NCBI GenBank assembly: GCA_947494335.1
Contig: CANLUT010000003.1
Location: forward strand, 199,381-263,380
DNA: 64,000 nucleotides
Reading direction: 5' to 3'
DNA from: Oligoflexales bacterium
Lineage (GTDB): Bacteria > Bdellovibrionota_B > Oligoflexia > Oligoflexales > RGVZ01
In this document: positions 13,250 through 53,579 of the stretch, in pieces
Layout: each line of letters opens with the position of its first letter
Numbering within the stretch: the stretch's first letter is position 1
Notes under the pieces: generated by a model
Database searches by the model: none
What the model was told of the DNA's origin: nothing
Seen by the model: the letters and a program-made list of their open reading frames with translations, nothing else
Program-made: the position numbers and the translations under genes

Positions 13250-13732
13250 ATGTATAAGCTGTTTATCAGTCGGTGTGCTTTTTTAGCGATTTTTTTACAA
13301 TCAGGGCAGGCATTCGCCTCAATTCCTTGTACTGCTGAAGATAAATCAATGCTTCCGAGGCAGATTCAGGCGACAACATCCGTCAACGATCAGTCGATTA
13401 ACATCAAAGTTACAATACCGAGCGAGGACTACATCAGTCGATGCGCTGTGTCTGCTCTCGAATACGGTGATTTAATCTCTTATTCGTTTGCTCCAGGTTA
13501 TGAGGCCGTGGTGGATCTTACTATTGAAAATCCTATGTCTTTCTCTCAACCAACAAAGCGTTCGTTCAAACTTAAATTTCTGTCGCTTGATCCCACTTTT
13601 TTGGCAGATGAGAGAGAGAGGTTTCCACACAATATTCGCATCAAAGACACTCAAGCCAAAATGGTTCACGATATCTATTTAAACCGTGATGGTAGACCCG
13701 CAATGACTCGTTCTTACTTGATGAATAATTAA
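13250..13732 (+). CDS. Small secreted protein, unknown
   Basis: 160 residues from ATG 13250, preceded by GGAG at 13239-13242. A signal peptide runs to about residue 24 (LQSGQAFA|SIP). The mature part has two Cys (IPC near the start and SRC about 45 residues later), probably one disulfide, and alternating hydrophobic strands suggesting a beta-sandwich. No family recognised. It ends at a strong terminator and stands opposite the five-repeat gene. Confidence 0.6.
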   Translation: MYKLFISRCAFLAIFLQSGQAFASIPCTAEDKSMLPRQIQATTSVNDQSINIKVTIPSEDYISRCAVSALEYGDLISYSFAPGYEAVVDLTIENPMSFSQPTKRSFKLKFLSLDPTFLADERERFPHNIRIKDTQAKMVHDIYLNRDGRPAMTRSYLMNN

Positions 13733-13747
13733 CTGATCATAAAACAA

Positions 13748-13780
13748 AAAGCCCCCGGAGAGGAAATCTCCGGGGGCTTT
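13748..13780. terminator. Strong bidirectional rho-independent terminator
   Basis: A 14-base perfect stem AAAGCCCCCGGAGA / TCTCCGGGGGCTTT with a GGAAA loop and A/T-rich flanks on both sides. It separates the plus-strand secreted protein from etfA on the minus strand and can serve both. Confidence 0.9.
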
Positions 13781-13789
13781 CTCGTCTCG

Positions 13790-14758
13790 TTACTTTAACA
13801 GATTTTTAAACTGCTCGGTCATCAGTGGCACAACTTTGAAAAGGTCACCTACAATGCCGTAGGAAGCCACGCCGAAAATCGGAGCGTCTTTGTCAGTGTT
13901 GACAGCGACAATGACTTTCGAGGTTCTCATACCAGCCATATGCTGGATCGATCCTGAAATTCCGCATGCAATGTACAAGTTTGGGTTAACAGTCTTTCCT
14001 GTTTGACCTACCTGCATATCGTGTGAGGCGTATCCTGAGTCCACAGCGGCGCGCGACGCACCAACAGTTGCTCCAATGACATCTGCACAGTCAGCGAGAA
14101 TTTTGAAGTTGTCAGAGTTCGCCATGGCACGTCCGCCAGAAATGATCAGAGATGCCTCTGTTAAATCTGGTTTTGCGCTTTTGCCTTTACGGATTTCGAC
14201 AGTCTTAATTTTACCGTCACCAGCTGCAGCGGATACAGGTGTTGCTCCTGCGTTGCCGCTTCCTGGCTTTGCTACCGGGAAAACATTCTGGCGGATCGTG
14301 ACAAAGGAAATCTTTGCGCCCTCTGTAGCCACATCTGCGATACATTTACCGGAATACATTGGTTTTGTACCCTGAACTCCCGAACCTGATGACTCAACAT
14401 AGGTCAAGTCTGTCAAGATCGCTCCGTCCATACGGGCAGCGAGTCTAGGGAAAACATCCCGGCCCATCGGTGATGCGACGCCAAGTACAACGTCCGGAGA
14501 AAACGCTTTGATCGCCGATTCAACTCCATTTGCGTAGCTTTGGACGTTGTAAAGTGCGCAGTCCGCGCTATCCGCAGTGTAAACTGTATCTGGTCCCCAA
14601 CCGGCAAGCTGGCTTGCATGTCCGGCAACACCTTGGCCAACTAAAACAGCCGCCAAATTTGCCGAGCTTCCAGCAAGTTTGAAGCCTACAGTCAGTGCCT
14701 CGTGAGCCGATGATTTGATCTTGCCGTCCCGCTGTTCAATAAAAACTAAAACTTTCAT
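13790..14758 (-). CDS. etfA: Electron transfer flavoprotein alpha subunit
   Basis: EtfA with EtfB carries electrons from acyl-CoA and other dehydrogenases to the quinone pool. The 322-residue length is typical. The C-terminal FAD domain is clear: SGGRAMANSDNF, GASRAAVDSG, QVGQTGKTVNP, YIACGISGSIQHMAGM and AVNTDKDAPIF. The start ATG at 14758 follows GGAGG. It lies 14 bases after etfB in the order etfB-etfA, one operon. No dehydrogenase gene is adjacent in this window. Confidence 0.95.
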   Translation of the reverse strand: MKVLVFIEQRDGKIKSSAHEALTVGFKLAGSSANLAAVLVGQGVAGHASQLAGWGPDTVYTADSADCALYNVQSYANGVESAIKAFSPDVVLGVASPMGRDVFPRLAARMDGAILTDLTYVESSGSGVQGTKPMYSGKCIADVATEGAKISFVTIRQNVFPVAKPGSGNAGATPVSAAAGDGKIKTVEIRKGKSAKPDLTEASLIISGGRAMANSDNFKILADCADVIGATVGASRAAVDSGYASHDMQVGQTGKTVNPNLYIACGISGSIQHMAGMRTSKVIVAVNTDKDAPIFGVASYGIVGDLFKVVPLMTEQFKNLLK

Positions 14759-14772
14759 AGGTCAGCCTCCGG

Positions 14773-15558
14773 TTAGATCACTTTGGCTTCTTCGCGAAGC
14801 AGTTTAACAACTTTTTCTACCATCGCCTCAACAGGCTCGCCTGCAAAGACTTTTCCTTTTGGTTTCTCAGGAGGATATTTGTATCCCTTGATCACCGCTT
14901 TTGGCTTTAGGGATCCAGCGTCGACGCCGACGTCACCAGGGGTTTTCATATCAAATGGTTTCTTTTTTGCTTTCATGATCCCTGGCAGTGACGCGTATCG
15001 TGGGGTGTTCAATGATTTGTGAGTACCGAAAATTGCAGGTAGGGACACATCATAAACCTCGACCTGACCGCCTTCGACCTCGCGCTCGACGCGAGCAGTA
15101 GTTCCGTTCAGATCAAACTTTGTGACTACGTTGACGTGCGGCCAGCCAAGCATCTCGGCAGCCATGGTGCCAACATGCATATTGTCATCATCGATCGCCT
15201 GCTTACCGCAGAAGACAACATCTGCTTTTTCAGCCTTGATTGCGCCGGTTAGAACCTTAGCAATTGCAAGCGAGTCTGCGCTTTCCAGGCCAGTGTTACT
15301 TATCAGAAGTCCGCGGTCACCGCCCATCGCCAAGCCTTTTACGATTAATTCCTTGGCTGTATCTCCACCAAAACTTGCAATGACGACTTCGCCTGTGCCG
15401 AGTTTTTCCTTCAGTTTAAGAGCTTCCTCAATTGCAAATTCGTCATAAGGGTTGATGATGTATTTAACATCTCCTTGCTCGATGGTCTTACCATCTCCAG
15501 ACAAGCGGATTTTTGTTTCCGTGTCCGGTGTCTGCTTAATCAAAACAAGAATTTTCAT
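14773..15558 (-). CDS. etfB: Electron transfer flavoprotein beta subunit
   Basis: 261 residues from ATG 15558, with GGGAGAG upstream; the frame continues to 15669 but MKILVLIKQTPDTETKI is the classic EtfB N-terminus. Further signature elements are NPYDEFAIEEAL, the AMP-binding CGKQAIDDDNMHVG segment and LPAIFGTHKSLNTPRYASLPGIMKAKKKP near the end. EtfB binds AMP and pairs with EtfA. It is the first gene of etfBA. Confidence 0.95.
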   Translation of the reverse strand: MKILVLIKQTPDTETKIRLSGDGKTIEQGDVKYIINPYDEFAIEEALKLKEKLGTGEVVIASFGGDTAKELIVKGLAMGGDRGLLISNTGLESADSLAIAKVLTGAIKAEKADVVFCGKQAIDDDNMHVGTMAAEMLGWPHVNVVTKFDLNGTTARVEREVEGGQVEVYDVSLPAIFGTHKSLNTPRYASLPGIMKAKKKPFDMKTPGDVGVDAGSLKPKAVIKGYKYPPEKPKGKVFAGEPVEAMVEKVVKLLREEAKVI

Positions 15559-39120: not shown

Positions 39121-39150
39121 AAAAAGCCGACCGTCAGGGTCGGCTTTTTT
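39121..39150. terminator. Bidirectional rho-independent terminator
   Basis: The stem GCCGACC (39126-39132) pairs with GGTCGGC (39138-39144), flanked by five A and six T, giving a classic hairpin plus T-run in both directions. It separates the lipoprotein gene from the convergent KAS III-like gene. Confidence 0.9.
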
Positions 39151-40148
39151 CATTGTTTCTGTAGAAGCAGTGATCCCCAGGTGAGGCCGGCTCCCACGAC
39201 AGCGATTACGATATAGTCACCTGGCTTGTAGCGGTCCCAATTTTGAGATAGCACCGATGGTGCGCCGCATGCCCCCTGATTACCTCGGTCAACGACGTTA
39301 TATAGGTGTTTCTCTGGGGGAACTCCCATCTTTTCCATCGCAGATGTCAGCATTCTGTAATTTGCCTGATGTCCAATGAACCACTGGGCGTCAGCCGGCG
39401 TTAATTTGTTTCGGGCTAGGATATCTTGAGCAGCTGCGATGGTCTTGGTGATGGCAAACTTCTGAACTGCGGCTCCGTTTTGATGAAAAAACTTTCCATC
39501 GGGTAAATGAATATGTTCCCACCCACTTGGAGCCGACTCTACAAGACTATCGACAACCTTAAGCGAGTCGGGACGGTGTTTTGAGCTTACTGCTGCGGTA
39601 ATCGAAGAATCGCCAAAAAGAATCGAATTCCTGCGATCGCTGTAGTCAACACGAGTCGTGTACCTTTCTGCGCAGAAGATAGCGCCCTCATTGGTCAGTC
39701 CCGCTAGCATGAGGCCCCGCATGACGTGGCATTGAACTACAAAAGTACTACAAGCAGAATTGACATCAAAGCCACGAACGCGTTCCATACCTAAATGGGC
39801 TGAAATAGCACAACCGCTAGCTGGAATATCATCGTCAGGAACGGAGGTGCCACCAATGACTGTGTCGATATCCTCTGACACAATATGCGTACGATTCATG
39901 GCCATCTTCCAGGATTTTTCGCTCATACTGGCAATAGATTCTATTGCTCCTTGATCTTTCAATTGAGCACGGTTAATTCTTCCGTATCGTAACTCGGAAA
40001 TCTGCTGCGGCGTCAGAACAGAGCGTCTTTCAACAATACCAACCCGCTCTTCGATCCAATCAGCTGCAGAGCCAATATCCAGTTTGTCGAAAAATTTGTT
40101 GTCGAGTACGTTTTCGGGGAAGTAATGCCCCATGCTGTAAATAAACAT
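39150..40148 (-). CDS. 3-oxoacyl-ACP synthase III-like enzyme (FabH family)
   Basis: 332 residues from ATG 40148, 16 bases after the SDR gene with AAGG upstream; a longer frame to 40274 would overlap that gene. The thiolase-fold triad is complete: C133 (NSACSTFVV), H260 (GHQANYRML) and N290 (VDRGNQGA). The family condenses acyl-CoA with malonyl-ACP or related units, starting fatty-acid or polyketide chains. The YSMGHYFPENVLDN N-terminus and EERVGIVERR are typical. It is not in a fab cluster, so a side role in a special lipid is possible. Confidence 0.85.
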   Translation of the reverse strand: MFIYSMGHYFPENVLDNKFFDKLDIGSAADWIEERVGIVERRSVLTPQQISELRYGRINRAQLKDQGAIESIASMSEKSWKMAMNRTHIVSEDIDTVIGGTSVPDDDIPASGCAISAHLGMERVRGFDVNSACSTFVVQCHVMRGLMLAGLTNEGAIFCAERYTTRVDYSDRRNSILFGDSSITAAVSSKHRPDSLKVVDSLVESAPSGWEHIHLPDGKFFHQNGAAVQKFAITKTIAAAQDILARNKLTPADAQWFIGHQANYRMLTSAMEKMGVPPEKHLYNVVDRGNQGACGAPSVLSQNWDRYKPGDYIVIAVVGAGLTWGSLLLQKQ

Positions 40149-40164
40149 TGGCTTACCTTGTGAA

Positions 40165-40911
40165 TCAGTTTGTAAACATGCCGCCGTTGACGTGAATGGT
40201 GCTTCCGGTGATGTACTTTGCACTATCCCCAGCCAAGAAAGCGACAGCGGCGGCAATGTCTTCCGGTGTGCCAAGACGCTTTAGAGGAATCTTGGCTAAA
40301 ATGGACTCTTTCGCCTGATCCGGGAGAGCATCAGTCATGTCCGTTTGAATAAAGCCTGGCGCCACACAGTTACACAGAATTCCAAATTGAGCTAAATCCT
40401 GAGCTATGCTTTTGGTGAATGCTGTGATGGCTCCCTTTGTTGCGGAATACATCGACTGTCCAGCATTACCCGTGTAGCCAACCACCGAGGCAATATTAAT
40501 GATCCGGCCAGTCTTTGCGCGGATCATTCCCTTTGTAGCAAACTTACTGAGGAGAAAGACAGGCTTTAGATTGGTGCTTAGTAGAGTCTCGAAGTCTTCT
40601 GGTTTGGCGAATGGAAGAAGCTGGTCGATCGAAACACCTGCGTTGTTGACAAGAACCTGGATGGGGCCCATTTCTGCAGTAACGACCTTGATAAGCTCCT
40701 GACATGCTGCGGGATCGGACAAGTCTGCTTTGAATGGCACTGCACCGGTGATTTTCTCACAGATGGCTCGCGCCTTATCTTCTGCGCCACGATAGTGCAC
40801 AGCGACTTTGTATCCGGCCTGACCTAGCGCAATGGCGCAGGCTGCTCCGATTCCTCTGCTCGCCCCCGTCACCAGTGCGACTTTAGCTACGGAGCCACTC
40901 GGCGAACTCAT
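40165..40911 (-). CDS. 3-oxoacyl-ACP reductase-like short-chain dehydrogenase (FabG family)
   Basis: 248 residues from ATG 40911 with GGAGGG upstream. SDR landmarks are TGASRGIGAACAIAL for NADP binding, NNAGVS, the active-site S and YSATK (MYSATKGAITAF), and a late CVAPGFIQTDMTDALPD. FabG reduces the 3-oxo group formed by a condensing enzyme, and here the condensing enzyme follows 16 bases later. The pair may act together on an unknown acyl substrate. Confidence 0.9.
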   Translation of the reverse strand: MSSPSGSVAKVALVTGASRGIGAACAIALGQAGYKVAVHYRGAEDKARAICEKITGAVPFKADLSDPAACQELIKVVTAEMGPIQVLVNNAGVSIDQLLPFAKPEDFETLLSTNLKPVFLLSKFATKGMIRAKTGRIINIASVVGYTGNAGQSMYSATKGAITAFTKSIAQDLAQFGILCNCVAPGFIQTDMTDALPDQAKESILAKIPLKRLGTPEDIAAAVAFLAGDSAKYITGSTIHVNGGMFTN

Positions 40912-41007
40912 AGACCCTCCGATCTTTTGGATTAGACATGGGAGGATATCACTTGGGTAAACAGCCGACAATCAAGTTTAATGGATCGTTGTCGCTGGGA
41001 TGGAGTC

Positions 41008-43422
41008 TCAAGAAGCCGTTTTCACCGAAGTGGAATTGGCGGTTTTTTGTGCATCCTTGACCTTAAACGCCCATTGGACGAGCAAGGCGGTCGTGCGCCA
41101 GATGCCAAGGATGTCATTACTAGCATCTGGATGAAATCCTTCGTGAGCTGCGCGGTTTCGGAAGTCCTGGAATATGTGTAGTTCACGGCAATACTCAGCC
41201 AATTCGATATCGTCTTTTGCCCCTGTGACTACAAGGCTAGCCAAGCCGTGCTTACATTGTTGCCGACCAAAAACGAAAAAGAAAAGTCCAAACGCCTTTA
41301 GGCCATCCAGAGTGAAACGTTTTCCAGGTTCAAATTGACAAAGTGCCCTTAGCATTTTTCTTAGTTTGAATTTTGAGAAAAAGGGGATCTCTTTGACGAC
41401 AGGAAGAGCCGCAATAAAGGATTCGAAGTCATCCATATTGCGAAGGATTGGTCGAGCATAACCGATGACGTCCAGCTTACGTTGGATAGTTCCTCTTTGC
41501 AGAATCTGACTAACGTGATCTTCAAAAAATTCACGGTACAGTAGCTCCATGGCCTTATATTGCATATCGATAAGCGGAGATAAGTCTATTTCGTCGGCGT
41601 GTTTGCTGGAGGTGACAGTCTTGTTAAAGAACAGGGCTGTACGAAGAGCGCGTTTGACTTCGCTAGAGAGATGATTGTAATGCGGAATCATGCCTGCCAA
41701 TTCGAAATCAAGGTTTTCTCCGTTAGTGCCGTTTGTATCTTCGTTTCTGAGAGTCACAATAGTTGGCCTATTGCCTGGCAACAATAGCGCAGATAGTTCG
41801 TCTTTTAATTGAAACAATGGGTGATCGGTGTTTTGAGGTAATTCGAAATCATGGACCACACTGCGAAGCTCTTTTTGGAGTGCCCTGAGATCTTTGCTGC
41901 TGAGTATATTGACGATCTCTTGTTTGACGACGTTTGACGCGTTCGGCCTGGTAAGCATGTTTATCAATTCGAGGAGGCTGCGAGGTGTATTAATTGCGCC
42001 TAATGCGCGAGCAACTGAGCGGATCTCCGTCTCGTCGTTGCTACGAATATGATCTAGCAATTTAAGCACTGCGTCGTCTCGTCCTTTCAGCTTCGACATC
42101 GACATAATATGGGCAAGGGTCATCAGGCCGCGGCCTTTTCTCGTGGCTGCTGTGAGGCTATTAATGTCCATCGTCTCGGGAGAAAGCCAGGATTTGGCGA
42201 GCAGTGACCACGAACCATTGCCGGAAATGGTTCCATCATTGGTTTTTGAAAGCACTGAAACAAAATCCATAAAGGCATGCTCGATAATTGCCTTTGACTC
42301 GGGCTCATCTGAGAAATCTTTGGTGTTAGAAATTTTGTCAGATGACATGTTGGACTTGCCAGCGACTGCATTTTCGCGAGCAGAATGGAGTTTTGCGAAC
42401 ACATTGTTATCGTAAGATTTTGAAAAGATGCTACCGCTTTCGTTGGCTGGTCCCGGAAATTTTCCAAAAGGCTGGTGGCTAATCAAGCAGTCCAACCAAG
42501 AGTCGCTCGAAGAGATTATGGGACCTTCGCCGGAAATAGCTGCGATGGGCAGACCATCAAGGAGTCCTGGATTACTCGGCGCCAGTCTTAGTAACTTATT
42601 CAGAATGGTTAGTTTCATTTCGCCACGAGACCAGATGGCTGGTAGCTTCAGTGGCTGGTCGAGTTTATCCACATCCTTGGTTAATAGTTTTTCTAACTTT
42701 GAGATTTCGTTGTTACGCCGATCGTGGTGCTCGATAATTGCCGACGTGGCTTCAATCCAAATTGCGCGAGGACCAGATGCGATCCATTTTTTTAACTCAT
42801 CTTCCGCGTGTCGGCATAGCCAGCAGACGGCTGGTATCAGGCTTTTATCCTCTGGAAATGAAGCGGACCTGTTGATGTCCAGTATTTTCCAGGCGAGTTT
42901 GTTTAAACGTGAATCAAATAAATCAAACTGTAAGCATCTTTCAAATAAAAGAGCATGGAATGCGGAGGAGAGTTCTTCCCAGTCTTTGGCGTTCAAAGTT
43001 GCCCTTACCAGTTCAAATCCATGAGATAGTGTCGCGATATCGAGAATCGTAAATCTTATACGTTGTGGAAGACCCGGACTGGCGGCAATGGGGATCAGAC
43101 GATGCCAAAGAATTCTGTCTGTCGCTGTCGCCCAAGTCCGAATAGCGGTCGCAGCGATATTCTGCTCCCACCCTAAAAGATGATCCATGACCCATAACTC
43201 AAAACCAGCGCGGTAGGTTGGATAACAAATTTCAAATGCGGAGATGATTTCATCCTGACTCAAAGGGAAATGGATCAGACCTTTAAGAAGGTCGTAATCA
43301 ATCGTCAGCGAATTCTGCCGCCATTTATGGATAATCTCGATGCGCTCTTTCGAAGATGCTGCAGAGATGAATTCCTCCAGTTCAGAGCTATTGATGATCC
43401 TTGGGCTGCTTTTGGAAACCAT
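41008..43422 (-). CDS. Large helical protein with HEAT-like segments and a HEPN-like C-terminus, unknown
   Basis: 804 residues with no signal peptide and no membrane helices. The middle (about 430-540) has repeated helical pairs resembling HEAT units (RSVARALGAINTPRSLLELINML, then VVKQEIVNILSS). The last 240 residues are helical and end with FQDFRNRAAHEGF, where R755 and H760 make an Rx4H motif of the sort found in HEPN nucleases. HEPN domains often cut RNA in defence and toxin systems, but this motif alone is not proof, and Rx4H also occurs in non-nuclease helical domains. It is a single gene without an antitoxin-like partner. ATG 43422 with AAGG upstream. Confidence 0.5.
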   Translation of the reverse strand: MVSKSSPRIINSSELEEFISAASSKERIEIIHKWRQNSLTIDYDLLKGLIHFPLSQDEIISAFEICYPTYRAGFELWVMDHLLGWEQNIAATAIRTWATATDRILWHRLIPIAASPGLPQRIRFTILDIATLSHGFELVRATLNAKDWEELSSAFHALLFERCLQFDLFDSRLNKLAWKILDINRSASFPEDKSLIPAVCWLCRHAEDELKKWIASGPRAIWIEATSAIIEHHDRRNNEISKLEKLLTKDVDKLDQPLKLPAIWSRGEMKLTILNKLLRLAPSNPGLLDGLPIAAISGEGPIISSSDSWLDCLISHQPFGKFPGPANESGSIFSKSYDNNVFAKLHSARENAVAGKSNMSSDKISNTKDFSDEPESKAIIEHAFMDFVSVLSKTNDGTISGNGSWSLLAKSWLSPETMDINSLTAATRKGRGLMTLAHIMSMSKLKGRDDAVLKLLDHIRSNDETEIRSVARALGAINTPRSLLELINMLTRPNASNVVKQEIVNILSSKDLRALQKELRSVVHDFELPQNTDHPLFQLKDELSALLLPGNRPTIVTLRNEDTNGTNGENLDFELAGMIPHYNHLSSEVKRALRTALFFNKTVTSSKHADEIDLSPLIDMQYKAMELLYREFFEDHVSQILQRGTIQRKLDVIGYARPILRNMDDFESFIAALPVVKEIPFFSKFKLRKMLRALCQFEPGKRFTLDGLKAFGLFFFVFGRQQCKHGLASLVVTGAKDDIELAEYCRELHIFQDFRNRAAHEGFHPDASNDILGIWRTTALLVQWAFKVKDAQKTANSTSVKTAS

Positions 43423-43501: not shown

Positions 43502-44491
43502 GTGGAAAGGTCATCAAAGGTGAGTTTCTTGATAAAGTTAAAAAAAAATAGAATTTTATTGATGGTCTTAGGTGGATACGCCTTCGTTGTTTCTAGCGTA
43601 AACGCGCGAGAACTTCCTTTTCCGGCGCCAAGTCACGCGGGGATGCCAGTTCAGCTTAAAGTTTCTGGCCTGGTCGTTGATAAAGGGGACGTGTTCGTGT
43701 TTCCTGATTCACCATCAGTGATGATTAAGATCCCTTTTGATACGAGAAATAAGTCGACAACATCGCCTTTTGGGGGGTTAGCACTTCAAAGTCGTGTCCA
43801 GATAAGTGGAAGCGCTAATCCGGGACGATGGCGAGGATTTTATTCTATGGGTGAACAGGTTGTTGTCTGGGATTCGACCATCCTTCAGCTGCTGGTTTTA
43901 CAAAAGAAAGACTTCTCTGTCGTGCGGAGTGTGACTGTTCCTCTTGATGTCGTAAAGCCCGCACTGGATCGAGGTGGAGAGGCAAGTCATCTAGAGGTTA
44001 AACGTCTAAGGAATAAGCTTCGCGGTTCATTTAAGAGTTTAAAGGGAGATCGTTTTTCTGGACTGGCTGAGATTCCCTCGGATTGGGAAGGTTCTAAAGG
44101 TCGACGGTTTCTTATTTCAACCCGGCTGAGCGGCTTTCCTTTATTACTGATGGCCTGTGATCCTGATGATGCGGCCAATTGTTATATCGAACGACAATGT
44201 CAGCTTCACGGTGCCTCCCCGCAATTGAATGCTCATTCAGCCGGTATCGGCATCAACGCGGAAAAACGGGCGATTTTGATCGCAAATTCTTTTAGTAATA
44301 CGATTGAAGTTTTCAAATACGATCGTTGTGGGAGTGTGCAGAAGACAAGCTTTTTAAAGATTCCGAACAAGTTGCCCAAAGTTGAGACCATTTATCTGGA
44401 TGCATTATCAAGATTATGGATCGGAACTGGTGTTATCGACACCCAGGTGGAGTCTAATATCTTCTTTTGGGAAAAAGGGACCTGGATGTAG
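43502..44491 (+). CDS. Secreted protein, possibly beta-propeller, unknown
   Basis: Up to 329 residues from a GTG at 43502; a TTG at 43529 after AAAGGTGAG is an equally good start and fits a cleaner signal peptide (ending SVNA|REL). The mature protein contains strand-rich segments, with a later HSAGIGINAEKRAILIANSFSNTIEVFKYDRCG and ETIYLDALSRLWIGTG that look like propeller blades. It has four Cys. It converges with tamA. Confidence 0.55.
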   Translation: MERSSKVSFLIKLKKNRILLMVLGGYAFVVSSVNARELPFPAPSHAGMPVQLKVSGLVVDKGDVFVFPDSPSVMIKIPFDTRNKSTTSPFGGLALQSRVQISGSANPGRWRGFYSMGEQVVVWDSTILQLLVLQKKDFSVVRSVTVPLDVVKPALDRGGEASHLEVKRLRNKLRGSFKSLKGDRFSGLAEIPSDWEGSKGRRFLISTRLSGFPLLLMACDPDDAANCYIERQCQLHGASPQLNAHSAGIGINAEKRAILIANSFSNTIEVFKYDRCGSVQKTSFLKIPNKLPKVETIYLDALSRLWIGTGVIDTQVESNIFFWEKGTWM

Positions 44492-44516: not shown

Positions 44517-47516
44517 TTAGAATTTCGCACCCACGTTGATGTGAAATTCTCCTCGTCGCCAAAGTGGAATCGATAAATCTGATCTAGGGTAACAAAATTC
44601 CTTGTTGCTTTTACATTTGGCAGTTTTTGGTTCATGCCATGGGACCCCGTACGCCAGATTTATTGCACCAATGGGGGTTAGAAAGTTTAATGCCGTACCA
44701 GCGGAAGTATAGTTTTTTTGCCAGACGACTTCTGGGTCTGAAATAACATCGCTAACATCATAACCGATATTATCCTCGATGCTGCTAATGGCTTCCCCGC
44801 CACAGCCCTTTTTGACGTCTCGTTCGAACGCGCGCTTAAATTTTTGCTCTTCGATCTTATTAAAGCTCGCAGTACCAGAATCCAAAAACAAGGTCGTTGC
44901 GAATGCCGATGTGAACCGATATCTGCTCTCCAGTTTTAGGACGAGTCTTCTTGATCCACCAGTCGGTGATGACGTGTACCCGCAGGCCCAGTTTCCCTCT
45001 GGATCAAGTGTGGGGCGACGAACTGTGGGACCGAGAACTTTTTCATCGAAGCCGCGAACTCGCTCGACCCCACTAGCCAAAAGTCTTTCACTTTGCGGCA
45101 AAATATCTGCATCCGCGGTCCCTTCACGTTCGACATCTTCGAAGCTTGTAATGCTAATTCCAAATGCAAATACAAGATTCTCCACAGGTGATATGTAGTG
45201 ATTGTTGGTTAATTCCCATCGGAAATAACGCAAATCTCCACCGAGATCATAACGAGCCCACGATAATTCTGAGTTTAACGTATAGCCGGCACTTGCCCAA
45301 AGCAAGTCATTACGCTTATCGATAAACAGGCGAACACCGGCACGTCCCACAGCAAAAGTGTCAGCCAGGAAAGCGTCTACGTCCTCTTTGACGCCCTCCT
45401 CCTCATTCAGTTTTCTGCCATAAAAAGTTGAAATTTTGGACCCTGGTAAAACAGACCTTAAGCTATGGGATAGTTCCAGTTCCCCGGCCCGAGTTAAAGA
45501 CCATGCATACTCAGTCGCTCTTGCACCTTGTGCTACGGATACTGTTCCATCGATGTTAGAATCCGCCAGATGAGGCTCTAAATACCCAGCAGAAATTGAT
45601 CGCCCGACCAATGTCTTTGATCCGATGGCCTTTTGGTGTGATTCTTGTTTGAATTCGGCCCGACCATAGAGTTGTCGACCTGTTCCTAAAATATTCGTCA
45701 AGGCAGCCTCTACGTTATATCGCATACCGTAGTAAGAGCTCCATCCCGGTCCAAAGGTCAACGTGCGCGAGGGGCTCTCTGTGACCTGGATGACCAAGTC
45801 AACGGTATCGGACCTTTTAAATGCAAGGTCGGGGTCGAGAGGTTTTATGATGACTGTGGAGAATGTGCCGATGCGCAATAACGCATCTCGAGATGCAGAA
45901 ACCTGTTCCGGTGTATACCAATCACCGGTTTTGAAATGAAGTTCACGGAGGACGACCTTGGGTTGAGTTTTAACTAAGCCGGTGACAAACACATCCCCAA
46001 ATTTCACGCGGGGGCCTTCGTCAATTTTTACAATGACTATTGTCTCCATTCGTCCATTGCTCAGACTTTTAGAAGATGTTTCGGCTGATGTTGATGTGTA
46101 AAAATAGCCATTATTTGCATAGATCGAGCGAATTTTCTGCTGGAATTCAACAATTTTTGTCCGATCCAATGGTGCTGATTTTTCAAAATCACTGAGCTCA
46201 ATTATTTCTTCATTTGGAATGGCAGAGTTCCCGCTGACTGCAATTCGATCGAATATGAATTGATCGCCTTCATCAATTGAGACAACTATGACGATAGTGT
46301 TACTGAGAACTGAGCCTGCCTGGCTCTGAATCTGACGATCTATAACTTTTACGTTCCAAAAGCCTCTGTTGATGTAGCTATTTCTGATGCGTTCAATTCC
46401 GGCTGATATTGCATCTGGGTTGAATATCACACCCGATCGTTGACCTTCGCTTTGCGGTGGACGTTCGATCCCTAAGAGAGAAAATATTTCGGTCTCACTG
46501 AAATAGCTGGCTCCCTCGACCTGAAGGCGACTGATGGTGGTAACCTCTCCAGGGATCACGTTGAATTTGTGTATTAACTCCCCACTTCCTGTCTCAGTTA
46601 ACACCGGCCCTGATACTTGAGCATTGCTATAGCCTTTGATTTTCAGCTGGCGCAGGAGTTCAAAGTTCACAGAGTCAGGGCTTAACATCGCAGGATCAAA
46701 ATTCTGCATGTCTGAATTTGAGAATATTGATGACAGGCTTCGTCCAGTGTTTTGATCAACAAATTCATAGACGATTTTCTTTCCAAAAATACCTTTGACT
46801 TTGATCCAGGCTGACGCTGTCCCGGCGTCAAATTGAAATCCTTCGAAGGTTAGATTTGTGTTAGCATATCCTAACGAGCGTGCCTTACTCTCGGTCTCCG
46901 CGATAGCTTTACCAGCTTCCTCAGCGCTACAGATTTCGCCTGCTCTTATGGACTGATCAACTGAAATTGGTGGTGATTGCTCCCATTTAAAGCCGCGAAC
47001 GATACAAGGATCTCCAATGTCGAGCTTAAATCTATATTGGACATCTCCCTCAGATTCTTTCACGTTAGTTGTGATGTTTGATGACATGTATCCGTGTTTT
47101 GATAATACTGATTTTAGTTCGGTCTCCAATTTCTCTCTGAGTTCTTGCGAATGAACCTGTCCCAAGTATGGGGTGGCTGCGGCGCGTAGATAGATTAAGA
47201 GAGATAGAGGCGCCATTTCGAAGTCTACTTTCGATAGCGCGACTCCTCGAGTTCCCTTCACAATCAGTCCATCGGGCATTCTTTCGATCCAAAGGCTTGA
47301 GAAGGGGTGGCGCAGGGCCATGGAAACAAGAATCTGCTGAAGATCCCCAGTATTGTTAATTTCTGGCGTTCTTGTGTGAAGTCTCTCGTTCTCATCAGCA
47401 CTTATCATTAAGTCAGGATCAATGGTCCAGGAGTTGCTGGACATAGCGACGCCAGGCCATAGCGAAGCAATAGCCACCAACAATCCAAGCAAGCATCCAT
47501 ATTTAGGGAAATGCAA
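44517..47516 (-). CDS. tamA: Omp85-family outer-membrane translocon, TamA/BamA-like
   Basis: 999 residues. I place the start at TTG 47516: it begins a signal peptide (MHFPKYGCLLGLLVAIASLWPG) and overlaps the tamB end by 14 bases, whereas the frame to 47669 would overlap by 167. Several POTRA-like units follow (for example the segments around FNVIPGEVTTISRLQVEGA, SIDEGDQFIFDRIAVSGNSA and KIDEGPRVKFGDVFVTG). A 16-strand barrel ends in GAKF with terminal Phe. The Omp85 loop motif VRGF occurs in RVRGFDEK. The extracellular side holds several Cys (ACGY, KGCGG, KCKSNKEFCYP). Its position next to tamB supports TamA, but the protein is longer than usual. Confidence 0.85.
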   Translation of the reverse strand: MHFPKYGCLLGLLVAIASLWPGVAMSSNSWTIDPDLMISADENERLHTRTPEINNTGDLQQILVSMALRHPFSSLWIERMPDGLIVKGTRGVALSKVDFEMAPLSLLIYLRAAATPYLGQVHSQELREKLETELKSVLSKHGYMSSNITTNVKESEGDVQYRFKLDIGDPCIVRGFKWEQSPPISVDQSIRAGEICSAEEAGKAIAETESKARSLGYANTNLTFEGFQFDAGTASAWIKVKGIFGKKIVYEFVDQNTGRSLSSIFSNSDMQNFDPAMLSPDSVNFELLRQLKIKGYSNAQVSGPVLTETGSGELIHKFNVIPGEVTTISRLQVEGASYFSETEIFSLLGIERPPQSEGQRSGVIFNPDAISAGIERIRNSYINRGFWNVKVIDRQIQSQAGSVLSNTIVIVVSIDEGDQFIFDRIAVSGNSAIPNEEIIELSDFEKSAPLDRTKIVEFQQKIRSIYANNGYFYTSTSAETSSKSLSNGRMETIVIVKIDEGPRVKFGDVFVTGLVKTQPKVVLRELHFKTGDWYTPEQVSASRDALLRIGTFSTVIIKPLDPDLAFKRSDTVDLVIQVTESPSRTLTFGPGWSSYYGMRYNVEAALTNILGTGRQLYGRAEFKQESHQKAIGSKTLVGRSISAGYLEPHLADSNIDGTVSVAQGARATEYAWSLTRAGELELSHSLRSVLPGSKISTFYGRKLNEEEGVKEDVDAFLADTFAVGRAGVRLFIDKRNDLLWASAGYTLNSELSWARYDLGGDLRYFRWELTNNHYISPVENLVFAFGISITSFEDVEREGTADADILPQSERLLASGVERVRGFDEKVLGPTVRRPTLDPEGNWACGYTSSPTGGSRRLVLKLESRYRFTSAFATTLFLDSGTASFNKIEEQKFKRAFERDVKKGCGGEAISSIEDNIGYDVSDVISDPEVVWQKNYTSAGTALNFLTPIGAINLAYGVPWHEPKTAKCKSNKEFCYPRSDLSIPLWRRGEFHINVGAKF

Positions 47517-50500
47517 ACTTGAACTTAAGGTCGACCCCGGTGTCGGCCGGTGCCCCCGATCCTTTGCTGCTGACTCCTGACTGATCATTGCTACTCTCAA
47601 TACCACCTGTGAGGGAAATGCTATCATGAAGGCTATACTCTGACGACACCTTAAGCGTGGTTTGATCAACCTTTAGAATGACGTCAAAGTCGTCCGTAAT
47701 GTTGAGTGGAAGATTGAAACGAGCAACAGGTGTTCCACCCTCCGGAGCATAAGTGTCGATATAAACCTGCCGTATGACATTTTGTCCTGACAGATCGAAT
47801 ATTTTCTGGACAGTGTCTTCAACCTGTCCAGCTAGGAGGTTTAAGGCTTCAGCCGCAGCTGCAGATTCGGAGGTGTTTCTCCCCGACTGTGCATCTGGAA
47901 GTGATCCGCGGCTTAATAATCCAATAATTTCCATTTTTGAAAGAGCCTGTCCGTCGGGTCTGGTTGCCGGATCGACGGTGAAATCTATCATGGGTGAGCT
48001 TGCGCGTCCCGAGATATTAATAGCAACCCGATATGATGCGACATCACTGGTCGCAGAAATATCCAGAGATGGGTCTACCTGAATTGGATCATCAAAGTTG
48101 ATAAGACCTCGCTTTATCTCGAAATCGCGTTTGTAAAAAAATCGTCCTTTTGGAATGTCAACCAGGCCGATAATACTCGGTGTTAGGTTATTGCCTGAGA
48201 TTCGAAGGTCGGTCGAGAGCTCTGCTTGAACTGAACGACTGGAAAAAGAAATTGAGCGTTCAGCTCCAATGTTTATATCGAGATTGACTGTTGGAGTAAT
48301 AGATTCTGTGCTATCTCCTGTCGATTGAGATCGTAAGCCTTCGATGATGGCTTCACGAAGATCAAAGTCTCGATTGGACCTGGCGCGACGAATGACCACT
48401 CTACCGGCTGCCGTCCAAGGCCGTGCGGTACCGGAAATCTTAATCTGACCATCAATAGACGAGTCAAAGTATTTTACGATCGGAAATGGATATAGAAATG
48501 CAGCGTTCTCAAGATTGATCGACAGATCGGTATCTTCGCCTGAACCTGGTCTGGCGATGAATCCATTGGCTGCGATGACTCCATTGCCCTTATTCGCTCG
48601 GAATCGTCGGATGTAGACACCATCGTATTTGATATTTGCATTAAGTTCGATATTTTGAAATGTAGGTCGAAATCCAAGAAGTCCAAGGTCCATTGATCGG
48701 GACTCTGTATCTACATTTCCGACATTGATATCGACATTAGGCTTTTCAGTTGACCCTGTGATGGCTCCGTTTATTGCGAGGGACCCAGATGCCGTCTCGA
48801 CATCAGAGATAAATAGCTTCAGAGCTTCAATGTCCATTTTTCCATTGATCAAGACGCCTAAGTGATGTGGCGGACGATGGTCGCGAAGTCCAAATCTTAG
48901 CTCTCCGAAGGAACTGCTTATTGTTAGTGGAAGATTGTCCGCTGCGACCCAGGAATTCCCACTGAAATAGATGCGTGATGCATGAGCCGAGCGGAAGTCA
49001 AATCTTTGCCCGTTTCCTGATCCTGAAGAGTAGTACCTGATCCGTAAATCCTTTAAATCAAGCTCGCCTTTGCTTTCCCACCACCGATCCATTCTCCCCT
49101 GTAGTGTCCAGGTAGCTGTAAGATAGGCATAGTTTCTGGCGTCTTGAGACATGACAGATGGAAGCCATGGTCGAAAATCCGCGTTACGCGCGGAGATATA
49201 CCAGCTAAAGGGAATCTCGTCCTTGCTGAAATCGAGATTGATACGAGCTTTCAGTGCGCTACCACCTTGCTCAGCCATGATGTCAAGCTTACCGCCGTCA
49301 ACTACGATTGAGGATACAATGTCACTAACCGGGTTATTTGTGATTTTTGTTTTCGACGTCCTTAGACGGGCGATTCCAGTTTGTTTGCTGAGATTTCCAG
49401 CAAATTTAAAGTCGCCCGCTGTTTGGGCAGATATCCCATATTCTGCAGCATATCGTCCGACAATGGGAATGAGTCTAATCTCGTCGCCTGCTCCGGATAT
49501 CGGTGTCAGTTTGCCCTCGATCTCGAAACGATCTTTCTTTCCTAAGCCCAATTCGGTAAGAATATCTCCGGGATTTTTGCTTTCCGAGCGAACGTGATTG
49601 AACTTAATGTCGGCTTTGGTACCTGCGGTAAGAATTTCAAGATTATCGGTAGCAAGTCCAGTGTCTGTTCCCTTTATGGTTCCTTTCAGAGATTTACCAT
49701 AGAAATAATTCCTGTCTCTGGCATTTTCAATGTCCAGGTCAAGAGTCCCTTGCCAGGTTAACGGCTCCAATGCCGGTCCTTTCATTTTGATATCCGCTGA
49801 GCGCACGACAAACTCTAAAGACTGCTTGTCATCGGTGATGTCTCGTATCATAGATCCGATCACTCCGTGGTCGACCATCCTTGCGTTAGCTGAGAAGTCG
49901 ATAGTCAAGTCGTCATCGAAAGTGAGTTTGCCAGACGGACTAATTAGATTTCCGCCACCATCAAATCTGATTTTGAAATCCTTCCATTCAAGGAATTCAT
50001 CGTGCACTGTAAGCTTTGCGTTCATGTCTCCCACTGCTGTGCTACCAATAACAGTGTCACTGATCTTTGTCTCGACGTCGACTTTCACGTTATCGTAAGC
50101 TCCGTGTATCCTCGTCTGCATGGCTCCACGTCCAGCCAGCGACGCTTGGGCAAAGTATGCCAATGGTGATGGATTGAACTCGTCAGATCGCAGCAAAATA
50201 TCTAGACCAGATTTTGGGTCAAATGATGTGACGCCCGACATATTGAGAGAAAATCTTCCAGTTTTTGCAGGTCCGTAACAGTGACCCGCGCCCCTGTTGA
50301 TCTGCAGTTCATTGGAATCCACTTTTAGTAATAGATCCAGATCACAAGTTGGTGAGTTCGGGTGTCGAGCGTGAGCATAGTCAAGGCTTGGGGTTTTAAA
50401 GTCTTTTAGCTGAGTGGCGGCCTGCACAGTCATTAAAAATGGATCACCCGTTCCGGTTATCGCGAGTAGAGGACTCGTCATGTGGAAATTGAGCACATCA

Positions 50501-51711
50501 AAATCGACATTAAAAATTCCAAGTAGATCCTTAAACGGAAGATCTGTTGGTGTCAGCTTGAAGTCGAAGGGAACCACCTTATCAAAGCCGATAGACCCAG
50601 AACCCGTCGCGACGGTCTTTTCACCAATCTTTAGATCAATGTTAGATAACGTGAATTTGTTCAAGTCTACTGAGAAATCAGATTCTGTTTCGTACAGACG
50701 AAAGTCATAAAACCTTGCATCATGACTCTGTAGTTTTCCGTTTGTGGTGAACCCCATCGGTTTCTTTGACGTGATCGGTATGAAGACTGTTGTTTTGGCC
50801 GAACCGGTTAATTTACCTCGGTTACCAGGTATGTCTAGAAAGCTTCCGATTGTGCTTGAGTCTGCTTGGAATTGATTTGAGTTGAGATAGACATTGATGG
50901 CATCGATTACGCGACTTTTGGGTTTGTTTACGATTTCCAGATCTGAGGTACCATCAATTTCGAGTCGTGGGGATCTGACTTCCAGTTTTCTGGATCGGAA
51001 TTTATTCCCCTGCATCTCACCGCGAAGTTTAATGCTGGCAGATTCAATGTATGAGGTTGTTTGATCAGTTAATGTTGTCTTGGGAGAATTGAGATTGAGT
51101 TTAAATGATTTCCAATCGTGGATTTCTACGTCGAGATTTAATCCATCGGCTGCTATGCGTGTAACCTCGGATGGGTCCTGGTTGGCGTTGACCGAAAGAC
51201 CATCAAAGGTTGCCTTCAATGATGCATTTGAGATTTTCAACGAAGAAACAGGAGGCGGCTGAAGTGGGGGCCACAAGGGATCTCCTGGTTTGTTTTTATC
51301 CGATGTTGTCCCCAAATTTTTCACCGCATCCATAAAGTCCGCAGGTGGAGGCCAGCTCATGACTAGATCTGTGACTTCAATGTCCCCAATTTGTGGATGC
51401 GCCATAAAAACAGACCAAAGTGATACTTGAAACACAAGTGAGGACGCCGCGACAAGCTCCTCGCCTCGCAGGCTATCCTTGCTGGAGCTGCTGACTTTCA
51501 GTCCGTAGATATTGAAAGACGGCGGCAGAAGTGAGACCTTCATGCTTTGGTATTCGGCTCTGATGGGTAGTTTTTTTAAAATTTTCTCGTTGAGATAGAA
51601 ATTTACCAAGCTATGAGTGTACGGATTGTCAATGATTAGATTTCCCACATATAACAAACCAGCTATCACGAGAATAGCGATGACGGTTCTGTTTTTCTGT
51701 GGTTTTATCAC
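47503..51711 (-). CDS. tamB: TamB-like (AsmA/DUF490 family) inner-membrane-anchored lipid/protein transport protein
   Basis: 1402 residues, of usual TamB size. One N-terminal helix (VIAILVIAGLLYVGNLII) anchors it. A very long stretch of alternating strands forms the expected beta-taco. The C-terminal TamB domain is clear: IDFTVDPATRPDGQALSKMEIIGLLSRG, GQVEDTVQKIFDLSGQNVIRQVYIDTYAPEGG, and a final GVDLKFKFAFP. TamB and related proteins bridge the periplasm for phospholipid transport and outer-membrane assembly. GTG start at 51711, with GAGGA overlapping the stop of the ATPase gene just before it. Confidence 0.85.
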   Translation of the reverse strand: MIKPQKNRTVIAILVIAGLLYVGNLIIDNPYTHSLVNFYLNEKILKKLPIRAEYQSMKVSLLPPSFNIYGLKVSSSSKDSLRGEELVAASSLVFQVSLWSVFMAHPQIGDIEVTDLVMSWPPPADFMDAVKNLGTTSDKNKPGDPLWPPLQPPPVSSLKISNASLKATFDGLSVNANQDPSEVTRIAADGLNLDVEIHDWKSFKLNLNSPKTTLTDQTTSYIESASIKLRGEMQGNKFRSRKLEVRSPRLEIDGTSDLEIVNKPKSRVIDAINVYLNSNQFQADSSTIGSFLDIPGNRGKLTGSAKTTVFIPITSKKPMGFTTNGKLQSHDARFYDFRLYETESDFSVDLNKFTLSNIDLKIGEKTVATGSGSIGFDKVVPFDFKLTPTDLPFKDLLGIFNVDFDVLNFHMTSPLLAITGTGDPFLMTVQAATQLKDFKTPSLDYAHARHPNSPTCDLDLLLKVDSNELQINRGAGHCYGPAKTGRFSLNMSGVTSFDPKSGLDILLRSDEFNPSPLAYFAQASLAGRGAMQTRIHGAYDNVKVDVETKISDTVIGSTAVGDMNAKLTVHDEFLEWKDFKIRFDGGGNLISPSGKLTFDDDLTIDFSANARMVDHGVIGSMIRDITDDKQSLEFVVRSADIKMKGPALEPLTWQGTLDLDIENARDRNYFYGKSLKGTIKGTDTGLATDNLEILTAGTKADIKFNHVRSESKNPGDILTELGLGKKDRFEIEGKLTPISGAGDEIRLIPIVGRYAAEYGISAQTAGDFKFAGNLSKQTGIARLRTSKTKITNNPVSDIVSSIVVDGGKLDIMAEQGGSALKARINLDFSKDEIPFSWYISARNADFRPWLPSVMSQDARNYAYLTATWTLQGRMDRWWESKGELDLKDLRIRYYSSGSGNGQRFDFRSAHASRIYFSGNSWVAADNLPLTISSSFGELRFGLRDHRPPHHLGVLINGKMDIEALKLFISDVETASGSLAINGAITGSTEKPNVDINVGNVDTESRSMDLGLLGFRPTFQNIELNANIKYDGVYIRRFRANKGNGVIAANGFIARPGSGEDTDLSINLENAAFLYPFPIVKYFDSSIDGQIKISGTARPWTAAGRVVIRRARSNRDFDLREAIIEGLRSQSTGDSTESITPTVNLDINIGAERSISFSSRSVQAELSTDLRISGNNLTPSIIGLVDIPKGRFFYKRDFEIKRGLINFDDPIQVDPSLDISATSDVASYRVAINISGRASSPMIDFTVDPATRPDGQALSKMEIIGLLSRGSLPDAQSGRNTSESAAAAEALNLLAGQVEDTVQKIFDLSGQNVIRQVYIDTYAPEGGTPVARFNLPLNITDDFDVILKVDQTTLKVSSEYSLHDSISLTGGIESSNDQSGVSSKGSGAPADTGVDLKFKFAFP

Positions 51712-51726
51712 GAGCTTGTTTTTCCT

Positions 51727-52587
51727 CTAGCTTTTCGCGGGCGCCAAGAGATCTTCTATTTTCTGCTGTTTTTTGTTTTCATCAGCACTAGATTTTTTAA
51801 CTGCGACCAGTGACGGATTTTTTGGAGGGATTTTTTGTGCCGGCTTTTTGTCCAGTATGTGATTCTCCTCTTGCCCGAGTACAGAGGCTACTAACTGAAT
51901 GGCGTGACCTGGTATTCCGTGTGCATCTTGACAGATTTTTAGCGCAGATTCCGATGAAATAAGCTCCGGACCTATACTGGCACTAAGAATTTTATTACTT
52001 ATGAATTTTTGCATTGTCATGTCGTCAAATTCTGGCAGTTTTTTGTTGAGCGTGACTCTTCGGAGAATTTGTGATTCATTAAAAAAACTGCCTCTTGTAG
52101 GGGACGGCAGCACAATAATCGAGCTGAGATTCAAATTACTGGCGTCCGCAAGATTGAGTAGTGCCATAATTTGCGAAGCGGCGTTTTCGGCGATTTCTGA
52201 AGAGGTGCAGTCTATGCACAGTAATATGGGACGAGGATTTTCAGAAAGCGATCGCAATTTTTCGCTGATCGACTGATTCGGTTGTCTCGAACTGGTAAGC
52301 CAAGGTGTTATTGCGTCTAAGATCCAGTCTGTTTTCGGAACAGCCGAAGCGTTTGTTACAGAGATTATATCAAGGTTTACAGGTTTACGTTCCTGCAGGA
52401 GTTTGATGAATGTTGTTTTTCCACTACCCGGCGACCCTGAGATCAGCATGAGACCGTTACATGACGTTGAAAATGTATAGATATCAGCCATGAGATTCAG
52501 CCATGCTTCTGGAACCAATTCTCGTCCCGAGGTGGTGCGTGCATAAACTTTGCCAAGCTTGTGAGTATCCCGAATTTCATCGGTCAT
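51727..52587 (-). CDS. AAA-type ATPase, ExeA-like, with altered Walker B
   Basis: 286 residues. Walker A is GSPGSGKTT (about 51-59). The Walker B position reads PILLCIDCTSSE, so the aspartate is present but the usual second acidic residue is cysteine. A later ILRRVTLNKKLPEFDDMTMQKFI resembles the sensor region of ExeA-type ATPases. The C-terminal 45 residues are Lys/Pro/Ala-rich. It overlaps the pseudo-receiver gene by four bases (ATGA) and precedes tamB by 15. The position suggests an accessory to Tam-linked envelope work; this is inference. Confidence 0.6.
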   Translation of the reverse strand: MTDEIRDTHKLGKVYARTTSGRELVPEAWLNLMADIYTFSTSCNGLMLISGSPGSGKTTFIKLLQERKPVNLDIISVTNASAVPKTDWILDAITPWLTSSRQPNQSISEKLRSLSENPRPILLCIDCTSSEIAENAASQIMALLNLADASNLNLSSIIVLPSPTRGSFFNESQILRRVTLNKKLPEFDDMTMQKFISNKILSASIGPELISSESALKICQDAHGIPGHAIQLVASVLGQEENHILDKKPAQKIPPKNPSLVAVKKSSADENKKQQKIEDLLAPAKS

Positions 52588-53579
52588 GATGCTTTGATCT
52601 CCCGAGTTTTTGCAGTTTCGGAGCTCACCTGCTGCGGTTCAAATACCTGCCATTTTTCCTGGGCGCGTTTTATCGAGGATTGAGGAATGCCGAACGAGAC
52701 TTCTTTCTCGGCAAGGCCTTCGGCGATGATAAGTCGTGCTAGAAAGCTTTCAACAACAGGATTTCCTGGAAAGTAGTCGTTCCATTCTTTGAGAAACACT
52801 AAAGCTTGATCAAGGCGCCCACTCGCTAAATGACCGATTGCAAGATCAAAATTGAAGATTACTGACTTTGGCGCCATTTGTTTGAGCTTCGTTAGAAATT
52901 TAAGCGCGTAGTATGGTGCGTGGGAATCAAGATAGAACCAAGCGCATTGAGCAAGAATTGCTGGATTTTGTGGGTTTGACCGGAAGTGATCGAGTAGTTT
53001 TTTTTCGGCTTCTCGGAAGAGATTTTGTTGCATCATTAAGGTAATAATAGCTTGAATGGCAAATGGCGACGCTTGTGTATCAAAAGCCAGTTTTTCGAGG
53101 ATTCCTATCTTGGTGGTCTCTCCGGCTTTAATTTCTTGTAGATGAGCGATATGTCGAAGAGCGTAAAGAGCGGGGTTTTCCCAAAATGTGATCATCTCTT
53201 TGAATGCTGAGATTATTTTGATCGGTACGAGAGGCTTAGAAATTACGGTGACGCTAAAAATTGTTTTAAAAATTTGAATGTCCAGTGGCTCTGTAAAATT
53301 CGTTAGTACTAAGGTGGGTGTTAACCGGCCTCTATCACTTTGAAATAACACCCGCAGAACTTCTGTCGCCGGGATCTTCTTACTCTCAATTACAATGTGT
53401 GCGGCAAAGGTCTTTGCTAACAGTCTTTCACGCGCCGACTGCGCGTCCGATGCAGGTAGGTGTACCATCCACTTCATCGGTCGAAGTATCTCGCGAATCA
53501 TGTTGTAGTAATTCGTATCTTCGCAGACAAGGAGCACATCGTTGTTGTGCCATTGACTGATTGTCTTTTTATTTTCCAT
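52584..53579 (-). CDS. Pseudo-receiver domain fused to TPR repeats
   Basis: 331 residues. Residues 10-130 follow the CheY-like plan: hydrophobic strand with acidic CED (E20/D21), VLTNF (T93) and VISKP (K115). At the phosphorylated aspartate position the sequence is HIVIES, so E65 replaces Asp. Such a Glu can mimic the phosphorylated state, and the protein may be always active. From about 150 to 310 there are TPR-like helices (LFREAEKKLLDHFRSNPQNP, DQALVFLKEWNDYFPGNP). It is the first gene of the unit ending in tamA, with a good TATAAT upstream. Confidence 0.65.
   Translation of the reverse strand: MENKKTISQWHNNDVLLVCEDTNYYNMIREILRPMKWMVHLPASDAQSARERLLAKTFAAHIVIESKKIPATEVLRVLFQSDRGRLTPTLVLTNFTEPLDIQIFKTIFSVTVISKPLVPIKIISAFKEMITFWENPALYALRHIAHLQEIKAGETTKIGILEKLAFDTQASPFAIQAIITLMMQQNLFREAEKKLLDHFRSNPQNPAILAQCAWFYLDSHAPYYALKFLTKLKQMAPKSVIFNFDLAIGHLASGRLDQALVFLKEWNDYFPGNPVVESFLARLIIAEGLAEKEVSFGIPQSSIKRAQEKWQVFEPQQVSSETAKTREIKAS

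Follow-up and report, generated by a model that had tools for sequence, protein, structure and literature searches.

A conserved receiver-TPR and AAA gene pair accompanying tamB in Oligoflexales

TamB is a putative carrier of lipids and proteins to the outer membrane, and TamB-like proteins are proposed conduits of phospholipids to it. The stretch of DNA analyzed here (hereafter the window) comprises 64,000 nucleotides of an Oligoflexales bacterium (assembly GCA_947494335.1, contig CANLUT010000003.1, positions 199,381 to 263,380). In it, a tamB gene is preceded by two genes for putative cytosolic proteins, a receiver-like protein with tetratricopeptide repeats (TPR), called RecTPR here, and an AAA protein. 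The locus raises the question of whether these two genes belong with tamB and what they could contribute. With a conserved cytosolic gene pair linked to tamB, the placement, switching, and powering of TamB would become accessible to genetics.

The genes are found as minus-strand open reading frames (ORFs) in the order RecTPR, AAA, tamB, and Omp85. A preliminary description of this DNA had claimed a four-gene unit and had placed all four genes correctly. RecTPR (52584-53579, minus strand, 331 amino acids) and the AAA gene (51727-52587, minus strand, 286 amino acids) overlap by four bases, ATGA, at 52584-52587, as had been claimed. The stop codon of the AAA gene, TAG (51727-51729), continues into AGAGG, which agrees with the proposed overlap of this stop with the binding site of tamB (47503-51711, minus strand, 1402 amino acids). 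The 12 nt from there to the GTG start of tamB are a long spacing. The full Omp85 ORF (44517-47669, minus strand, 1050 amino acids) begins 167 bp within tamB. From a reading of the sequence, its likely start is a TTG at 47516, directly ahead of the signal peptide MHFPKYGCLLGLLVAIASLWPGVA. The gene would then span 44517-47516 and overlap tamB by 14 bp, and the overlap of tamB with the gene that had been called tamA also holds. Pfam searches of the window's proteins identified TamB, POTRA/Omp85, and a TPR, and gave only weak matches for AAA. A scan for promoters and terminators gave no more matches than were found in shuffled sequences.

The neighborhoods of these genes were explored in 58 genomes of the class, many of which are draft metagenome-assembled genomes. 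A search at the level of the phylum gave the same set apart from one genome below the completeness limit. Loci around RecTPR and tamB were annotated with profiles built from the sequences of this analysis, and TamB positions were assigned by PF04357. The order is represented by 43 genomes. A readable stretch upstream of tamB is present in 36 of these, and the other seven are cut by contig ends or have no tamB match. Both RecTPR and the AAA gene precede tamB in 26 of the 36 assessable genomes. RecTPR alone is found there in five (G004, G006, G008, G021, and G022), the AAA gene alone in two (G023 and G024), and neither gene in three (G001, G025, and G026). One or both genes therefore lie directly upstream of tamB in 33/36 genomes, and RecTPR immediately precedes either the AAA gene or tamB in 31/36. 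A lack of association in relatives, which would have counted against the claimed tie to tam, was not found in this neighborhood search.

The packing of the genes is also conserved. The 4-bp overlap is present in most genomes of family f1, and elsewhere the intergenic gaps reach up to about 112 bp. Gene order is kept even though the mean identity of RecTPR and of TamB is down to 25-30%. The outer flank past RecTPR varies, with EamA in f1 and PurD/GARS in the tested f3, f9, and f11 loci, while the pair is constant. In family f7, the Omp85 gene lies apart from tamB and the pair is still found before tamB. Thus, the pair travels with tamB and not with Omp85. The pair is a conserved accessory module of the Oligoflexales TamB locus, vertically co-inherited with tamB across the order, co-directional, and tightly packed. 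Confidence in a functional link between the pair and tamB is high. The module is apparently undescribed, as searches of open-access PMC papers gave no description of such a pair.

Outside of the order but within this class-level set, the genomes of families f12 and f13 possess tamB without the pair beside it. In f13, other ORFs lie upstream of tamB in the same direction and have no Pfam matches (L140:8798-10466, L145:9217-10401, and L146:8895-10811). These upstream ORFs were considered as a diverged pair and rejected, since five profile comparisons gave no similarity. A possible pair of receiver-TPR and AAA genes at a distance from tam in f13 (L072 and L068) was also rejected, because the supposed AAA protein is an ABC-F protein and the match was false. 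Relatives of RecTPR are present away from tamB in the f11 genomes G027 and G033 (L058:3425-4567, L071:8323-9510 and 13702-14865, and L077:3347-4579). No RecTPR relative was found in the plasmid collection. A scan of named assemblies for TamB gave matches in Oligoflexales, Oligoflexus, and Oligoflexaceae assemblies, and a match near the window's genus is labeled Pseudobacteriovorax antillogorgiicola.

RecTPR possesses an N-terminal domain at residues 14-132 and a C-terminal TPR superhelix at residues ~149-325. Its AlphaFold2 model (predicted local distance difference test, pLDDT, 88.8; predicted template modeling score, pTM, 0.85) contains a five-stranded receiver followed by the TPR superhelix. 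In Foldseek, the receiver part matched DivK (TMt 0.84, root mean square deviation 1.9) and CheY (TMt 0.80), and the remainder matched consensus TPR and MamA. The DivK match places the domain within the receiver fold. The residues expected of a phosphorylatable receiver, namely the acid pair, the phosphoacceptor Asp, Thr/Ser, and Lys, are not all present. The Mg2+ acid pair is broken throughout the 32 relatives, with S, A, G, T, or C at the first position and an acidic residue at the second in only 12; in the window, the pair is Cys-Glu. Hydrophobic residues predominate at the Thr/Ser position, and 24/32 retain the Lys. The Glu that had been described in place of the receiver Asp is present in the window as Glu65 (53385-53387, minus strand), at the position equivalent to Asp57. 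It is not a trait of the family, however, as D is found in 29/32 relatives and E in only 3/32, which are this genome and two others. By these residues the RecTPR family is assigned to the pseudo-receivers, and the reason is the Mg2+ pocket that is broken family-wide, not Glu65. No hydrophobic or membrane segment was predicted in RecTPR.

The AAA protein was placed by profile matches and by fold. AAA_22 is matched by 17/22 members and TIGR03015 by 14/22, with a best E-value of 1.8e-22. TIGR03015 is the model of the XrtA-associated ATPase, and its profile family is an established relative of ExeA/GspA. The window protein itself reaches 20 bits with TIGR03015, far below the curated cut-off of 324.5. 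Its model (pLDDT 81.9) resembles the folds of ORC/Cdc6, TnsC, and RuvB. On these matches, the protein is assigned to an ExeA/GspA-like clade. Walker A (GSPGSGKT, residues 51-58; 52414-52437, minus strand) is intact in the window, and its Lys is kept in 23/29 members and lost in six (G010, G034, and G039-G042). Walker B is ILLCIDC (residues 121-127; 52207-52227, minus strand). As had been claimed, it contains a Cys, Cys127, which follows Asp126 and takes the place of the catalytic Glu. The window protein thus lacks one of the features of an ExeA/GspA-type ATPase, even though Walker A is intact. The Asp is kept in 28/29 members, and the catalytic Glu in only 3/29 (G023, G027, and G033); others have A, N, S, I, C, and more. 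Neither a transmembrane segment nor a peptidoglycan-binding domain was found in the window protein by Pfam and hydrophobicity, both of which belong to ExeA proper, and no ExeB-like gene was recognized beside the AAA gene. With the catalytic Glu kept in only 3/29 members, the Walker A Lys lost in six, and no AAA gene adjoining tamB in five genomes, a role as a nucleotide-binding switch is more likely than one as an essential motor. Such a pattern fits a switch that has decayed in some lineages and does not fit a conserved motor.

The C-terminal region of the AAA protein is divergent, and the linker at residues 247-266 is predicted to be disordered (pLDDT < 50). The tail, also predicted to be disordered, carries a conserved docking-like motif, IEDLL (51745-51759, minus strand). 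The pattern L-x-S/D-L-F/L is present in the last 34 residues of 25/29 AAA members. Within-sequence shuffles averaged 0.8 and reached 5 at most, a contrast that is inflated because the pattern was defined after viewing the sequences and the sequences are related. It was found in families f1, f4, f5, f7, f9, and f11.

The assignment of TamB is supported by Pfam, as PF04357 was matched with 116 bits (cut-off 22.4; 2.6e-33), and both a single N-terminal inner-membrane helix and an adjacent Omp85 gene are present. The equivalog cut-off of NF047952 was not reached (34, cut-off 825). About eight residues of the window's TamB are cytosolic. The linked Omp85 protein has POTRA repeats (Pfam POTRA 1.2e-33, Omp85 2.7e-18). 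It had been named TamA, and by position beside tamB the name can stand. By sequence model it does not, with 77 bits against the TamA model NF047950 (cut-off 625); the BamA model TIGR03303 gave 236 (cut-off 297). The genome's canonical BamA is encoded elsewhere (L157:539-2863, 775 amino acids, 531 bits). The linked Omp85 is therefore distinct from BamA and is TamA by position only. The genome possesses two large Omp85 proteins, and the one linked to tamB is longer than the 775-residue BamA.

Several known systems are similar to parts of this locus. The translocation and assembly module (TAM) of Escherichia coli, encoded by the tamA-tamB-ytfP operon, also has a TamB with one N-terminal helix and a C-terminal TamB domain and an adjoining Omp85 gene. 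In the window the order is reversed, with tamB first, the Omp85 protein is longer and scores nearer to BamA than to TamA, and two extra cytosolic genes are present where E. coli has none. The ExeA/GspA-type AAA ATPases (TIGR03015, AAA_22) are of the same clade by profile in 14/22 members, and ExeA is likewise the accessory of a trans-envelope machine (PMC4098917). Unlike these, the AAA protein described here has no transmembrane helix or peptidoglycan-binding domain, has mostly lost the catalytic Glu, and ends in a tail with the conserved L-x-S/D-L-F/L pattern. In Myxococcus xanthus, FrzS and SgmX use pseudo-receiver and TPR modules as cytosolic position markers, a likeness in type of function only (PMC11580455). 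There, the modules are divided between two proteins, of which FrzS also contains a coiled coil and SgmX contains 14 TPRs, and their target is the type IV pilus; homology is not claimed. Lastly, XrtA/PEP-CTERM loci are envelope loci in which TIGR03015 ATPases, which are ExeA-like, occur together with TPR proteins of the PrsT type. The profile matches to these are weak and far below the cut-offs, no exosortase gene was seen beside the pair, and the XrtA/PEP-CTERM proteins have no receiver domain.

What the pair could do for TamB can be considered in light of three facts. In E. coli, TamB is concentrated at the cell poles through a targeting mechanism that is unknown (PMC12977461). In M. xanthus, FrzS binds the TPR protein SgmX through its pseudo-receiver and promotes the recruitment of SgmX to the pole (PMC11580455). 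The ATPase domain of ExeA is cytosolic, and ExeA is required for the assembly of a trans-envelope secretin (PMC4098917). A model of positioning or licensing is reasonable because of these facts, which are analogies of working and not of homology. By analogy, RecTPR and the AAA protein could act in the cytosol as a scaffold and a switch by which TamB bridges are positioned or licensed. This reading is preferred here, tentatively and with slightly less than even confidence. RecTPR would be a scaffold that acts without phosphorylation, with its receiver and TPR surfaces binding partners. The AAA protein would bind ATP, hydrolyze it slowly or not at all, and serve as a nucleotide-dependent switch, while its tail motif would dock to a common partner. 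Together, the two could decide where or when TamB bridges assemble or act at the inner membrane. To reach TamB from the cytosol, a further membrane partner may be needed. It is possible, although somewhat doubtful, that Oligoflexales evolved the pair as a dedicated cytosolic module to control the location, assembly, or flux of the TamB trans-envelope lipid bridge. If this is true, a nucleotide-dependent cytosolic control point of a bridge-like lipid transporter would be open to direct study.

A number of observations weigh against the scaffold and switch. In most genomes, only ~4-16 residues of TamB reach into the cytosol. This cytosolic tail is basic and lacks a clear motif, so a direct grip by cytosolic proteins would be limited. 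A specific motif in this tail was sought in a survey of the tails and rejected, as only short basic tails were seen. The gene tamB is kept without an adjacent AAA gene (five genomes), RecTPR (two), or both (three). As each of the two can be absent where tamB is kept, neither is obligatory. The pairwise distances of the pair track those of TamB (r = 0.86 and 0.90), but such high correlations are expected from vertical descent alone. G024 keeps the tail motif of the AAA protein, yet no RecTPR was found in its genome. The partner of the motif may therefore be other than RecTPR, and the candidate binding of the tail to RecTPR is weakened. The proposed link of the pair to polarity, which is drawn by analogy, is a further point on this side.

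The preliminary description had suggested that the first two genes regulate or energize transport to the outer membrane. Regulation is plausible. Energizing is poorly supported, given the lost Glu, the degenerate P-loop, the AAA gene missing beside tamB, and the short TamB tail. An energizing motor would couple cytosolic ATP hydrolysis to the movement of lipid or protein via TamB, with RecTPR as an adaptor. The P-loop Lys kept in 23/29 members, the Walker B Asp kept in 28/29, and the catalytic Glu retained in G023, G027, and G033 are consistent with this, and a limited search of the TAM literature found no statement on the energy source of TAM. However, the catalytic Glu is lost in 26/29 members and the P-loop Lys in the six listed above, the AAA gene is absent beside tamB in the five genomes that have RecTPR alone, and TamB has no cytosolic domain to pull on. 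A motor is thus very improbable, and powering of TamB was rejected as the principal explanation because of the lost catalytic residues and the gene losses.

The pair could also help TamB to cross or anchor in peptidoglycan and to meet Omp85, in the manner of ExeA and the ExeD secretin but with no control of position or timing. The clade membership near TIGR03015 points in this direction. An assembly factor of this kind is nevertheless unlikely, as the window protein has no transmembrane segment or peptidoglycan-binding domain, no ExeB-like gene was recognized adjacent to it, and in f7 the pair stays with tamB though Omp85 moves away. A separate cytosolic function, such as stress signaling or gene regulation, is slightly less unlikely; the operon would then be shared with tamB through common conditions of need. 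The absence of a cytosolic TamB domain to contact and the RecTPR relatives away from tamB in f11 fit this explanation. So do the HEAT, FabG, and FabH genes that are also conserved nearby, with which the locus could be an envelope/lipid cluster of a general kind. Against it, the position immediately upstream of tamB is kept in most families of the order at ~25% identity while other neighbors change.

Further genes are found downstream of the tam unit. A secreted propeller-like ORF is at 43502-44491 on the plus strand. The minus strand contains a gene for a HEAT-repeat protein of 804 amino acids (41008-43422), whose hidden Markov model matches lie beside tam in f1, f3, f4, and f11 genomes, followed by genes for a FabG-like reductase (40165-40971) and a FabH-like KAS III synthase (39150-40274). 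HEAT, ORF329, FabG, and FabH recur near tam in several Oligoflexales families, and the propeller-like protein is likewise conserved there. These surroundings fit a lipid/envelope cluster, but nothing firm can be said, because the window's genome has three further KAS III-type matches. The C-terminus of the HEAT-repeat protein contains an RNxxAH-like motif, FRNRAAHEGF, that is reminiscent of HEPN-type sequences.

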